A DNA stretch of 64,000 nt. Source: Candidatus Wolframiiraptor sinensis (GTDB lineage Archaea; Thermoproteota; Nitrososphaeria_A; Caldarchaeales; Wolframiiraptoraceae). Position 1 is the first letter of the stretch. Each line of letters begins with the position of its first letter. The position numbers were made by a program, and so were the translations under genes. The notes beneath the pieces were generated by a model. It was not told where the DNA came from. It ran no database searches and saw nothing but the letters and a program-made list of their open reading frames with translations. This document shows, piece after piece, positions 25,687-29,561 of this stretch. Location of the stretch: contig JALNJX010000002.1 in NCBI GenBank assembly GCA_023268255.1, forward strand, positions 186,001 through 250,000, read 5' to 3'.

Positions 25687-27663
25687 TTAGTTTATTCCTA
25701 GGAGTAGGAGGAGTTTTGATGCGATTCCGCCAACTAGTATTGCTAGCCCGATTTCCGCTGCGGTGATTGTTAGGGTTGTTTTCGCTCCGGTCTCCTTTAG
25801 CAGGGCTGAGATTGTTGCGGCGCATGGTATATATAGTATTGTCACTATTGAGAACGTTATCATCTGGTTTGCGGTGAGCGCTTGCGAGAAGTCCAGGGTT
25901 CCGAGTAGCGCCGCGAGCGACGTCAGTATAAGCTCCTTCCTCAGGATCCCGAAGATCAGTAGCACGCCGGTTTCCTCCGGTAGCCCCAGCCACCCGCATG
26001 TTAGCGGGCTGAGAATCTTAGATAATGGCTCTAGGAGCCCAAAGATCTCCATGATCTTTACCAGAGCTCCGATCACGACGATCAGGGGGGCGGCTATCTT
26101 GATGTATTCCCGCAGCCTGATCCACGTCATCGTCAGTATTGTTTTGAGGCTGGGAGCCTTGTAGCTGGGCATCTCCATTATGAGCTCCACCGATTCTCCT
26201 GGCAGTATTCTCGAGGCTGCTGAGCCGAGCGCGAAGGCCATTAGCAGCGCGAACAGGTAGAGACCTATGACCCATGATATTCCCAGATATCTTCCGACGA
26301 GCCCCATAACTACGACCGTCACGGCGGAGCATGGAACGAGAGTCGTCATCAGGATCGCTATCATCCTCTCCTTCCAGGTATCCATGACCCTTGTGGCAAG
26401 GCATGCTGGGACATTGCAGCCGAATCCGAGGAGCATTGGGATCACAGCTTTGCCGTGAACCCCCGCCTTATGCATCAGCGAGTCCATCAGGAATGATAAT
26501 CTCGCCAAGTACCCCCAGTTCTCCAAGAGGAATACTAGGAAGTATAGCGGGAGAATGTAGGGTATGGCTAAGCCGATGAGGAATAAGATGCTCTGGGCTG
26601 CCGACCAGCCCACCTCAGATGATGGCGCGGTTCCAAGTGAACTGATCCAGGCCTCGCGCATGAGCTCCGAGAGATCCTCCTCAAAGAAGCTCGCAACCGC
26701 TCCGCCGACGCCGAAGACTATGAAGAAGATCCCCGCGAGCATTACGGCGGCTAGCATGTATCCGAGCACGGGGTGGGTCGCGATCTCGTCGAATCTATCT
26801 CCCAGCGTCGGCTTTCTGGGCTTCACTATCTTCATGCATCTCCTGGCGATTTGATTTGCCGCACAAGCCCGCTCATTCGCGATTATTATTGAGGATTCAT
26901 GTCCGTGAATGTGCTCGAGCTCGGAGATCAGCTCATCGGTTAGCTCGATTACGCCAGGGCTCCTAACTCTGACGAGCTCCCTGATCTCCTCATCGCCCTC
27001 AAGGAGCTTCAGCGCCACCCATCTCGCCGGGTATGGCAAGTCGAGCTCCTTCAATGCTGATTCCAGCATCTCGAGGCGCTTCTCGACCTCCTCACCATAA
27101 CGTATTTTCTTTGGCGTGTAGCTTGTTCTGCTCAGTTCGATGGCCGCGTCAAGGATTCGGGATATGCCCTTCCCGCGCGTCGCTATGGTCGCGATTACGG
27201 GCACCCCTAGCTCCTCTTCGAGAGCCTCGGCATTTATCTCGATGCCGTATTTCTCGGCCAAGTCCATCATGTTCAGCACGAGGACCAGCGGCCTCCCGAG
27301 CTCTATGAGCTGCAGCGTGAAGATCAGGTGCCTCTCGAGAGCGGTCGCGTCGACAACATTTATGACTACATCCGGCTTCTCCTTCGCGATGTAATCCCTC
27401 GAGATCCTTTCTTCGAGCGATAAGTGGGTCAGCGAGTAGATTCCCGGTAGATCCACCACATCTATCAGGAGGCCCTTGTAGTAGAGCCTTCCTTCAGCCT
27501 TATCAACAGTGGTTCCAGGCCAGTTAGCTATGTGTTGATGAAGTCCCGTCAGCTGGTTGAAGATCACGCTCTTGCCGACATTCGCCTGCCCGGCTAGAGC
27601 AACTCTTAGATCGGGCGTGGCTCGTCCGCCGACTCCGCGATCTGGAGCGCTCGCCCACCTCAT
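25687..27663 (-). CDS. feoB: Ferrous iron transporter FeoB
   Basis: The 658-residue protein has an N-terminal G domain (GQANVGKS near 26-33, then IANWPGTTVDK, DLPGIYS and LNMMDLAEKYG) and a long polytopic membrane region with two gate-like repeats (PMLLGFGCNVPACLATRVM and a later FGILRKELILTSL). FeoB moves Fe(II) across the membrane with GTP control. FeoA follows upstream at 27697, and the divergent gene at 28141 encodes a probable metal sensor, making a complete iron locus. Confidence 0.95.
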   Translation of the reverse strand: MRWASAPDRGVGGRATPDLRVALAGQANVGKSVIFNQLTGLHQHIANWPGTTVDKAEGRLYYKGLLIDVVDLPGIYSLTHLSLEERISRDYIAKEKPDVVINVVDATALERHLIFTLQLIELGRPLVLVLNMMDLAEKYGIEINAEALEEELGVPVIATIATRGKGISRILDAAIELSRTSYTPKKIRYGEEVEKRLEMLESALKELDLPYPARWVALKLLEGDEEIRELVRVRSPGVIELTDELISELEHIHGHESSIIIANERACAANQIARRCMKIVKPRKPTLGDRFDEIATHPVLGYMLAAVMLAGIFFIVFGVGGAVASFFEEDLSELMREAWISSLGTAPSSEVGWSAAQSILFLIGLAIPYILPLYFLVFLLENWGYLARLSFLMDSLMHKAGVHGKAVIPMLLGFGCNVPACLATRVMDTWKERMIAILMTTLVPCSAVTVVVMGLVGRYLGISWVIGLYLFALLMAFALGSAASRILPGESVELIMEMPSYKAPSLKTILTMTWIRLREYIKIAAPLIVVIGALVKIMEIFGLLEPLSKILSPLTCGWLGLPEETGVLLIFGILRKELILTSLAALLGTLDFSQALTANQMITFSIVTILYIPCAATISALLKETGAKTTLTITAAEIGLAILVGGIASKLLLLLGIN

Positions 27664-27696: not shown

Positions 27697-28005
27697 CTAG
27701 ACCTCGACGATTATTCTGGAGGCCAATCCTCTTCCTATCATGAACCGCGAGCCCCCTACCTCAACCTCTATGGGGCCTCCGAATGGAGCTCTTCTAACGA
27801 CCTTGATCCGCGTTCCGGGGAGTATGCCGAGATCCGCGAGCCTCTTAGCGGCGCCTCTGCTAACCCTATTCTCGCCTCTCCAGCCCCACCCAAACCTGCA
27901 TCTAAGCCCACCCCAGAATCCAGCCTCATGAGGCGGGCCGCAGGGCGCTATCTCGACCACAACAGCCTCCTGGCCCTCGCTTAACGATGTCAGCAAAACC
28001 TTCAT
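27697..28005 (-). CDS. feoA: FeoA, ferrous iron transport SH3-like protein
   Basis: This 102-residue protein has the FeoA SH3-like core: AKRLADLGILPGTRIKVVRRAPFGGPIEVEV, then GRGLASRIIVEV at the end. FeoA helps FeoB function. The N-terminal segment contains a Cys-Gly-Pro-Pro-His run and a glycine-rich loop (GFWGGLRCRFGWGW) that lengthens the usual 75-85 residues. It precedes feoB by 33 bases on the same strand. Confidence 0.88.
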   Translation of the reverse strand: MKVLLTSLSEGQEAVVVEIAPCGPPHEAGFWGGLRCRFGWGWRGENRVSRGAAKRLADLGILPGTRIKVVRRAPFGGPIEVEVGGSRFMIGRGLASRIIVEV

Positions 28006-28063
28006 CTAGCTCACCACTCTGATCCAGAAGGTTTTTCTATGAGCTGTGATTTTAAATTTATGG

Positions 28064-28084
28064 TGTAAAGCCTTGCACTTTACA
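28064..28084. promoter_or_regulatory. Inverted repeat operator candidate in feo promoter region
   Basis: TGTAAAG (28064-28070) and CTTTACA (28078-28084) are exact inverted repeats separated by seven bases. They lie between feoA (start 28005) and the divergent HTH plus ferritin-like gene (start 28141), with an A/T-rich TATA-like stretch at 28050-28060. This is the expected place for an iron-responsive operator. Binding by the adjacent protein is inferred. Confidence 0.5.
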
Positions 28085-28140
28085 GTGCTATTTTCGCACG
28101 CCAGCTCGAGAAGGCTGTTGCCCTTGGGGAGGTGCCGCTG

Positions 28141-28866
28141 ATGCGAGTCGAGGAGATAGCCTCGGGGATTAGAGCTGTTCTGGCGATGAGGCTTGTAAGA
28201 GATCATGGCTTTAGCAGGAAGAGGGCGGCGGAGGCTCTGGGCACGAGCCAGCCGACGATAACTCTCTACCTGAGTAATAGGAGGGCGTCGTCATCGGCGA
28301 GGAGGATAGCTGCGAGCGAGGCCGCTAGGCGCTGTCTCGATGAGCTTATTGAGAAGATCTTGGCTAGGGGGGCGATCAGCGAAGGTGAGCTTTACGATGC
28401 GGCCTTCAGCATCCGGAGAGCGCTTGAGATGGATGAGAGGGTTAAGATTATTCCGAGCGCGGTGAGCGGGGAGACCGCGAGGATACTCGAGTTTCTTCGC
28501 AAAAGGGTTCAAGCTGAGCAGGAGTCGGCAGAGGAGTTCATGAGGGCTGCTATAAGCTTGAGGGATGACCTAGCTAGAATGATTTTCAGGGCGCTCGCGA
28601 GCGACTGCCTGAGGCACGCCGACATCCTGATGACGCTCATATCGGCGATAGAGGGCGGCGGGGCCATAGACTTAAGCCAGTTGAGGAGAGTAGATATCGA
28701 AACCCTTCTCAGGAAGGAGGAGGAAGCGCATATAGAGAGCCTTGAAGAGGTCGAGAAGCTCTTGCCGAAGGGCTTCAGCACCCTGCTCGTCGAGTTCATC
28801 AAAAGCGATGAGGAGAAGCACTCAAAGGTCCTGAGGATGATCATGAATCTGATGAGAGAAAGCTGA
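28141..28866 (+). CDS. HTH regulator fused to ferritin-like diiron domain
   Basis: Starting at ATG 28141 after a strong GGGGAGGTG ribosome site, this protein of about 241 residues has an N-terminal Xre/sigma-like helix-turn-helix (FSRKRAAEALGTSQPTITLYLSNRR, in residues about 25-50). Its C-terminal half is a four-helix bundle with acidic/histidine pairs: AEQESAEEFMR, CLRHADILMTL, EEEAHIESLEEV and SDEEKHSKVLRM. The last two are ExxH motifs like those binding a diiron centre in ferritins and rubrerythrins. A DNA-binding iron or redox sensor controlling feoAB is the natural reading. I know no named family with this exact order. Confidence 0.65.
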   Translation: MRVEEIASGIRAVLAMRLVRDHGFSRKRAAEALGTSQPTITLYLSNRRASSSARRIAASEAARRCLDELIEKILARGAISEGELYDAAFSIRRALEMDERVKIIPSAVSGETARILEFLRKRVQAEQESAEEFMRAAISLRDDLARMIFRALASDCLRHADILMTLISAIEGGGAIDLSQLRRVDIETLLRKEEEAHIESLEEVEKLLPKGFSTLLVEFIKSDEEKHSKVLRMIMNLMRES

Positions 28867-28901: not shown

Positions 28902-29561
28902 TCACAACATGATGACCTTTGCGCCCATGATTGATGCGAGATTTTGCGGCACGTCTATGAATGCCCTGCATTTTAGGAGTATCGCCGAGTCACTGGTCGC
29001 GACTATCTCGCTCGATTTGATCAGCAGAGAGTCCACGGTCTTCGCGGTTCTGGCATCGCCTCGCAGGCCGATTTCCGATAACATGCGCCTCGTTAACCCG
29101 GCAATCTCGCCGCTCCTGCTTATCTGCGATTCGTAGAGCACCTCGATCTCTGCGACCCCCGCTCTTTTCAAGAGACCCAAAATCTCTCCGAGCGCTCTCG
29201 CCGTTAACTGCGATGGCTTATACTTCGAGTGCATCTCCAGTATGTCTCTCAACACGCCGTCATCGCATAGTATTAGGGGCTCGCCCCTCAGCATCGCCTC
29301 GATCGTGTTCAGCACATTGAAGCCGTCCACGATCACCTTCTCATTCTCAAGCTGCTCGAGCTTAAGATGCTTAGATCTTATGATGCTTGCCTCCTGCTCT
29401 GTCATAACCGAGCGATAGAGTATCGACCTCTCAGCCCTGCTCAGCTGATATCTGTCTCCAATGAGCTTGAGCGCTGACCGCCTCCTATAACCCCTCTCTA
29501 GTAGGAATTTTAGATCGGTTTTCGCCTCCTTCAAAACATCCAGCCTAAGCTGAGCGCTCAT
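28902..29561 (-). CDS. DUF434 protein with PIN-like C-terminal domain
   Basis: This 219-residue protein begins with a helical DUF434 segment (LKFLLERGYRRRSALKLIGDRYQLSRAERSILYR) and continues with VIVDGFNVLNTIEAML, whose DGFN resembles the first acidic motif of PIN/NYN-like nuclease folds. Further acidic residues occur in LYESQISRSG and TAKTVDSLL. Nuclease activity is possible but unproved. It starts four bases after leuS ends, so it is co-transcribed with leuS; a link to tRNA or translation is inferred. Confidence 0.7.
   Translation of the reverse strand: MSAQLRLDVLKEAKTDLKFLLERGYRRRSALKLIGDRYQLSRAERSILYRSVMTEQEASIIRSKHLKLEQLENEKVIVDGFNVLNTIEAMLRGEPLILCDDGVLRDILEMHSKYKPSQLTARALGEILGLLKRAGVAEIEVLYESQISRSGEIAGLTRRMLSEIGLRGDARTAKTVDSLLIKSSEIVATSDSAILLKCRAFIDVPQNLASIMGAKVIML

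Follow-up and report, generated by a model that had tools for sequence, protein, structure and literature searches.

Gene organization at the feoAB locus

The window, i.e., the whole stretch of 64,000 nucleotides analyzed here, contains a gene in which a helix-turn-helix (HTH) domain is fused to a C-terminal helical domain. Its open reading frame starts with an ATG at position 28141, ends with the stop codon at 28866 on the plus strand and encodes 241 amino acids; a GTG at 28132 is a possible alternative start. The fusion gene is oriented divergently to feoA and feoB, whose identities were confirmed with Pfam and NCBIfam profiles. A previous sequence-only reading had placed the fusion in the span 28064-28866. 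The ORF proved to be real and conserved, with coding sequence from 28141 onwards, whereas 28064-28140 is non-coding and contains the operator palindrome. The families of genomes compared below are termed f1 (the family of the window), f2 and f4 (sister families) and f13 (an outer family). The following features were assigned:

25687..27663, minus strand: feoB (TIGR00437, 508 bits; PF02421)
27697..28005, minus strand: feoA (PF04023, E 4e-22)
28057..28069, no strand: putative operator site 1, TTTATGGTGTAAA, matching WTWACNNNGTWAW at 9 of 10 positions (motif scan)
28064..28084, no strand: inner palindrome TGTAAAG-N7-CTTTACA, to which each of the two sites contributes its inward half (motif scan)
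28079..28091, no strand: putative operator site 2, TTTACAGTGCTAT, 9 of 10 positions, 22 bp from site 1 (motif scan)
28128..28134, plus strand: Shine-Dalgarno-like GGAGGTG, 6 nt 5' of the ATG at 28141 (read from the sequence)
28141..28866, plus strand: HTH plus ferritin-like fusion protein, candidate iron-responsive regulator, 241 aa (ORF call, conservation)
28180..28290, plus strand: helix-turn-helix, residues 14-50, with AF2 helices 26-33 and 37-44 and block pLDDT 88-97 (profiles, AF2)
28318..28437, plus strand: two additional helices, residues 60-76 and 81-99, common to short HTH paralogs, with homology over residues ~6-100 (AF2, profile search)
28468..28863, plus strand: predicted ferritin-like helical domain, residues 110-241 (profiles, domain model)
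28516..28518, plus strand: E126 of helix 1, a putative metal ligand that is invariant in the 30 orthologs (alignment)
28603..28617, plus strand: D155-x3-H159 in helix 2, both invariant, with Cys156 (mostly Ser in orthologs) at the canonical Glu position (alignment)
28717..28731, plus strand: E193 (invariant) to H197 (His in f1 and f4, Glu in f2) in helix 3 (alignment)
28807..28821, plus strand: D223-E224-x2-H227 in helix 4, all invariant (alignment)

On the other side of the fusion gene, a convergent gene with DUF434 and DUF5616 domains (PF04256, PF18481) is located at 28902-29561 on the minus strand. The window comes from a hot-spring archaeon of the genus that includes Wolframiiraptor; its closest named matches were W. 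gerlachensis, W. allenii and unnamed Aigarchaeota. The order name Caldarchaeales is used as in PMC9246946.

Domain architecture of the fusion protein

Residues 1-100 comprise the HTH domain and two further helices, with block pLDDT values of mostly 82-97 in the full-length AF2 prediction. In the window protein the HTH remained below the Pfam cut-off (HTH_3, E 0.0044, 17.5 versus 23 bits; HTH_23, E 0.002); in several orthologs an HTH profile scored above it, HTH_3 reaching up to 28.6 bits. HTH_3 was matched at E ≤ 0.01 by 21 of 30 orthologs, and a family profile searched against the PDB matched the HTH of 3op9 with an E-value of 2e-4. The 30-row alignment omits G025, whose fusion is cut by a contig end, and G028, where it is hidden by an overlapping ORF call; both are included in the genome tally. 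The protein had been described as distinct from Fur and DtxR regulators, and the profile searches agreed with this view. Neither the N-terminal nor the C-terminal DtxR domain matched the window protein at E ≤ 1, the N-terminal domain PF01325 was found in one of the 30 orthologs at an E-value of only 0.0034, and the FUR domain PF01475 was detected neither in the fusion protein nor elsewhere in the window's genome.

For residues 110-240, four long helices were obtained in both the full-length and the domain-only AF2 predictions. The window protein showed a sub-threshold match to the rubrerythrin profile PF02915 (E 0.013, 16.3 bits; gathering cut-off 22.8 bits). Among the orthologs, 22 of 30 matched this profile at E ≤ 0.01, the best one with 7.6e-6. 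In all ten orthologs that were scored singly the match extended over nearly the full profile (from position 8 or before to position 131 or beyond of 137), and one of the ten, L060, passed the cut-off (26.8 versus 22.8 bits). Ferritin_2 matched 8 of the 30 orthologs and the EncB-family ferritin-like profile 7. These matches point with moderate strength to membership of the C-terminal half in the ferritin-like superfamily, as had been proposed, and at the level of sequence the objection that the bundle might not be ferritin-like found no support. The closest relatives of the bundle that we found were three standalone proteins of 162-169 aa from related archaea (L074, L075 and L076; E ~2e-17 in a profile test with five sequences).

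Modelling, which had been recommended for the recognition of a diiron site, yielded the four helices and gave no such site. In the full-length AF2 model the bundle was poor (block pLDDT 31-65) and its geometry unusable. The domain-only model had a pLDDT of 86.1, yet three of the five models were at 51-57, and a Foldseek search with it returned no match at E ≤ 0.001. The highest VIA Z-scores, about 10 for encapsulated ferritins and 9.6 for sulerythrin, mostly reflect one hairpin and are under the 13 advised for helical bundles. A phmmer search of the PDB with the single fusion protein gave nothing under E 0.46, and the family profile found no ferritin under 0.07 and also matched one designed helix bundle. 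Alignment of the C-terminal domain by hhalign with the ferritin-like proteins of its own genome (L001-L003) gave no convincing match (probability 0.5-2). Site geometry was taken from no model.

The canonical ligand set of ferritin-like diiron sites is E, ExxH, E, ExxH. The C-terminal residues invariant in the 30 orthologs are R122, E126, A130, A153, D155, H159, A160, E193, D223, E224, K226 and H227, and seven of these twelve are Asp, Glu or His at ferritin-like helix positions. The residues agree only in part with the diiron site suggested by the sequence-only reading: the invariant Glu residues of helix 1 (E126) and helix 3 (E193) and the invariant E224xxH227 of helix 4 fit the canonical set, whereas helix 2 departs from it. 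In the latter, ExxH is absent; Cys156 or Ser occupies the Glu position, D155 stands one residue earlier and H159 is retained. Cys156 is invariant in six sequences of the same genus and replaced by Ser in most other orthologs. The two ExxH motifs originally noticed, E194xxH197 and E224xxH227, are both present in the window protein, but only the second is invariant in the 30 orthologs, His197 being Glu in f2. Judging from the alignment, the bundle likely harbors a metal site.

Distribution, operator and exchange with DtxR

When 398 Thermoproteota genomes were searched with the profile, 307 gave matches, mostly to short HTH proteins aligned over residues ~6-100. The full-length fusion was found in 50 of the 398 genomes (f1, 14; f4, 8; f2, 10; f13, 18), and because of this conservation a fusion by chance is excluded. 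In f1, the fusion gene was divergent from feoA-feoB in 12 of the 14 genomes with a full-length fusion. In G006 a second fusion begins beside feo but is cut off by the contig end after 33 aa, and the full-length copy lies elsewhere; in G008 feoB was not detected. In f4, the fusion gene was divergent from a PhnD-like SBP-ATPase-permease operon in six of eight genomes and from FTR1 in G029, and in G037 the locus was cut by a contig end. In f2, it preceded the PhnD-like operon in three of ten genomes and not in six, and one locus was cut. The neighbors within the Caldarchaeales were feoAB in 12 genomes, all of f1, FTR1 in one and the PhnD-like ABC transporter in nine. The fusion does occur beside feo in other archaea, and the feoAB and FTR1 neighbors refute the objection that it is never found near iron genes, although it does not adjoin them in the six f2 genomes. 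Of the full-length f13 fusions, known from 18 genomes of the survey, those in the eight loci read (L069, L071 and L141-L146) had no recognized adjacent iron gene (0/8).

In G029 and G033, two genomes of the same genus, the sequences on either side are colinear over 2.5 kb (91.3% identity) and 6.0 kb (89.5%); between them, FTR1 (864 bp) in one genome replaces the PhnD-like operon (2449 bp) of the other. The right-hand homology starts within one base of the operator. We interpret this arrangement as one regulator with two exchangeable importers. The PhnD-like ABC operon (L055:5210-7655, L116:1479-3907 and others), which replaces feo or FTR1 under the same operator, matches phosphonate families; it is predicted to encode an iron importer. 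In the W. gerlachensis assembly (G003, contig C8, L072 and L009) a second, decayed fusion-feo copy with a multi-stop fusion and a split FeoB was observed; either pseudogene formation or a mixture of strains might account for it.

Within the 150 nt upstream of the 32 fusion genes, the motif WTWACNNNGTWAW was present at 10 of 10 positions in 23 cases, where dinucleotide shuffles gave an expectation of 0.29, and at ≥ 9 of 10 positions in 26 (4.63 expected); these are not independent events because the sequences are related. The 32 promoter rows omit G025 and G028. Control ORFs of the same loci had a 10/10 motif in 3 of 225 cases, all three of which were PhnD-like genes adjoining the fusion in f2. 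The fusion promoters of f13 and of the f2 genera g9 and g13 were without the operator. At feo loci, site pairs scoring 8/10 or better were spaced by 21-23 bp in 11 of 12 cases (a set including G014 and omitting G006). Both sites in the window score 9/10 and neither 10/10, and the inner palindrome at 28064-28084 is the sole perfect TGTAAA-N9-TTTACA in the window's genome. The evidence for this palindrome consists of its perfect match, placement and conservation and not of its count; TGTAAAG-N7-CTTTACA with up to three mismatches occurred once in the window (1.29 expected), a count that is uninformative alone. A wider TGTAAA-N9-TTTACA regulon in the window's genome was considered and rejected: with up to two mismatches there were 11 matches versus 21 for the reversed pattern. 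The only one-mismatch copy, at C4:123663, lies within a predicted ORF.

In f2 and f4, WTWACNNNGTWAW preceded 19 of 20 sufB genes and all 17 PhnD-like operons, eight of which are not linked to the fusion; the counts include all f2 and f4 genomes where these genes were found. Matches to TIGR01980 and TIGR01978 verified the identity of one SufB and one SufC. In three f1 genomes, the PhnD-like genes (L126-L128) have another architecture and were left unscored. The motif was also found 5' of sufC, of a rhodanese-like gene and of riboflavin-kinase-type genes, the last two names being our own reading; the sufC count (6/6) is biased and was not used as proof because it was the motif search that had led to these loci. 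Of the FTR1 promoters, one of five had a 10/10 motif with the called starts, and G020 also reached 10/10 with the homologous start. ATAACNNNGTTAT occurred 82 times in 20 genomes versus 20 times for the reversed pattern. In most PhnD-like and sufB promoters the end of the motif is 3-21 nt away from the start codon, a position that in a leaderless gene would overlap the transcription start and, given archaeal promoter geometry, would suit a repressor. The motif is also present before sufB in G022 and G042 and before the PhnD gene in G022, two genomes (91% and 82% complete) in which a full-length fusion was not found. Sites also precede unrelated genes in fusion-less genomes, e.g., genes that we read as hemerythrin-like. 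At the start of such genes, WTWACRGYGTWAW was seen in L212, L213, L215 and L226, from genera g3 and g5. The sufB genes of G031 and G032 (L174, L197) are apparently interrupted by an intein-like insertion, the SufB match being split or followed by unrelated in-frame sequence.

A search of 46 genomes detected FeoB_N in 26. Among 22 scorable feo loci, 12 had the fusion without an adjacent DtxR gene, six an adjacent DtxR gene without the fusion, four neither and none both (Fisher P 0.0028, with relatedness ignored). Unscored loci were those of G006 and G030 (contig ends), those of G052 and G059 (unread) and, in G003, G004 and G019, a second feoB fragment. The DtxR box, whose consensus we take to be TTAGGYTANCCTAA, was perfect (12 of 12 positions) at 5 of 10 fusion-less loci and at none of 12 fusion loci, a set including G006 and omitting G014. 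The best scores at the latter were 6-9 of 12 positions, with 7 of 12 in the window. The perfect boxes lay 5' of feoA or dtxR at the four loci with neither gene and in G019; the fusion-less feo loci had an adjacent DtxR gene in six of ten cases and a perfect DtxR box in the other four. G018, which has DtxR, shares its genus with four fusion genomes. The fusion stands at feo where related archaea have DtxR.

Proposed control of iron uptake and alternative explanations

We consider it probable, with appreciable doubt remaining, that the fusion protein is a one-component, iron-responsive transcriptional repressor sensing Fe through its bundle; DNA binding, repression, sensing and the identity of the metal are what we infer from the data described above. 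The N-terminal HTH would bind WTWACNNNGTWAW, at feo as two copies 22 bp apart, which corresponds to two helical turns. The bundle would bind ferrous iron via E126, D155/H159, E193 and D223/E224/H227. Fe(II) in the bundle would favor the DNA-binding form and thereby shut the divergent feoAB promoter and the gene's own promoter, and under iron shortage the apo-protein would release the DNA and Feo would be made. In the sister families, the same regulator or operator might govern FTR1, the PhnD-like ABC transporter and the SUF genes for Fe-S assembly. Repression as the direction of control is suggested by the operator position and by analogy with DtxR, whose members respond to metal, and iron as the metal by the Feo and FTR1 context. 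The sequence-only reading had left iron and oxygen as alternatives for the signal; the transporter context favors iron.

The operator might instead belong to short HTH paralogs of 106-127 aa, with the fusion using part of the sites or none and a regulator with Cys ligands, perhaps an Fe-S protein, acting at the suf sites. These paralogs, presumably the COG2522-like short Cys-containing HTH proteins of Thermoproteota, are widespread and share residues ~6-100 with the fusion, but have Cys/His motifs instead of the bundle. One of them, a protein of 117 aa with PCE ... CxxC encoded on contig C7 of the window's genome (L230:2755-3108, plus strand), sits between two aminotransferase-V (cysteine desulfurase-like) genes and before a NifU_N gene, in a row that also includes a TusA-like ORF. 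It has a 10/10 operator 20 nt upstream and is a candidate Fe-S or cysteine-ligand regulator. A 10/10 operator also lies 4 nt upstream of a short paralog in the fusion-less genome G023, and control by such proteins would explain the suf sites in G022 and G042. However, four of the seven short paralogs had only 7-8/10 upstream and one was unscored, the 10/10 sites at the fusion's own promoter (23/32) argue against this explanation, and fusion-less feo promoters are without the operator, so that we regard it as possible but unlikely. Because short paralogs have 10/10 sites in C7 and G023, the operator may pertain to the entire HTH family. A tentative proposal that we hold to be somewhat doubtful is an iron and Fe-S regulon under a pair of sister repressors on the one operator code WTWACNNNGTWAW. 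A short Cys-ligated, perhaps Fe-S, HTH protein would serve cluster supply and the ferritin-like fusion would count iron, the fusion having displaced DtxR at feo and the PhnD-type ABC transporter joining the iron importers.

In a further alternative, the bundle of the same regulator would sense redox state, oxygen or peroxide, and an oxidized di- or mono-iron site would switch the HTH and induce iron uptake and SUF. Rubrerythrin-like relatives react with O2 and peroxide, SUF is classically induced by oxidative stress and low iron, and Cys156 does not vary within the genus. In view of the Ser found instead in most other orthologs, of iron transporters as the constant neighbors and of DtxR proteins or boxes as the alternatives at feo, we consider this explanation rather improbable. 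Still less credit can be given to a bundle that binds Mn or Zn or merely serves dimerization. Judging by their titles, some crystal structures have Mn in ferritin-like and rubrerythrin-like sites, and a ZnuA/ABC-3 operon is convergent to the fusion gene in some f4 genomes, but Feo and FTR1 are iron transporters, and dimerization alone would not need invariant Asp, Glu and His at ligand-like positions. That a DtxR-family protein encoded elsewhere binds the sites with the fusion as a bystander is very improbable: the DtxR C-terminal domain does occur in 41 of 44 Caldarchaeales genomes, including the window's own, but TTAGGYTANCCTAA is unlike WTWACNNNGTWAW and is distributed over the feo promoters as described above (5/10 versus 0/12), and fusion and adjacent DtxR were never together at feo.

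As an iron-responsive repressor, the fusion would resemble the DtxR/IdeR/MntR family (Fe_dep_repr_C, PF02742) in being a metal-sensing one-component HTH regulator at feoAB, the place held by DtxR in sister genomes; the sensing is assumed by analogy. It differs in the absence of DtxR domains, in its operator and in having a ferritin-like sensor half instead of the DtxR metal-binding and dimerization domain. With ferritin-like and rubrerythrin proteins (PF02915, including EncB) it shares, besides the profile matches (22/30 and, for the EncB family, 7/30), the DExxH of helix 4, the Glu of helix 1 and the His of helix 2. In contrast to these, the window protein scores below the cut-off, has Dx3H and not ExxH in helix 2 and carries a fused HTH. 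The standalone bundle proteins have DSxKHA and DExRHH motifs as in the fusion but lack the HTH, and no iron gene was recognized beside their three loci, where neighbors were not profile-annotated. The short Cys-containing proteins share the HTH, the two following helices and, in two of seven cases, the operator; they differ by PCE/CxxC or CxxH...CxxC motifs in place of the bundle. ThiR is an archaeal analogue combining an HTH with a ligand domain, for which no relevant paper was found among the open-access entries listed.

Prokaryotic iron regulators are thought to comprise few families, i.e., Fur, DtxR and sensors of heme or Fe-S, for example Irr and RirA. The latter two appear in a passage of PMC7762939. 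Among the open-access entries listed, bacterial systems were found for regulators of Fe-S biogenesis, and no description of such a fusion or of archaeal feo or suf regulation was found, nor was one found under the old name of this lineage. A term search of the main text of the Wolframiiraptor paper (PMC9246946) gave no mention of FeoB, DtxR or suf. The regulator type is real and conserved, is neither Fur nor DtxR, is tied to iron uptake by its context in f1 and is apparently undescribed in the open-access literature.

If the proposed function is correct, this would be, as far as we know and could find, the first transcription factor with a ferritin-like fold as iron gauge. A ferritin-like bundle as the sensing half would represent a further solution for a regulator, built from a storage or oxidase fold, and would illustrate the way in which DtxR was replaced at feo in an archaeal lineage. 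The operator code predicts a regulon comprising feo, FTR1, suf, rhodanese and riboflavin kinase genes, and it would assign iron import to the PhnD-like ABC transporter in spite of its match to phosphonate-uptake families. Because of these two predictions, the proposed regulator is testable.
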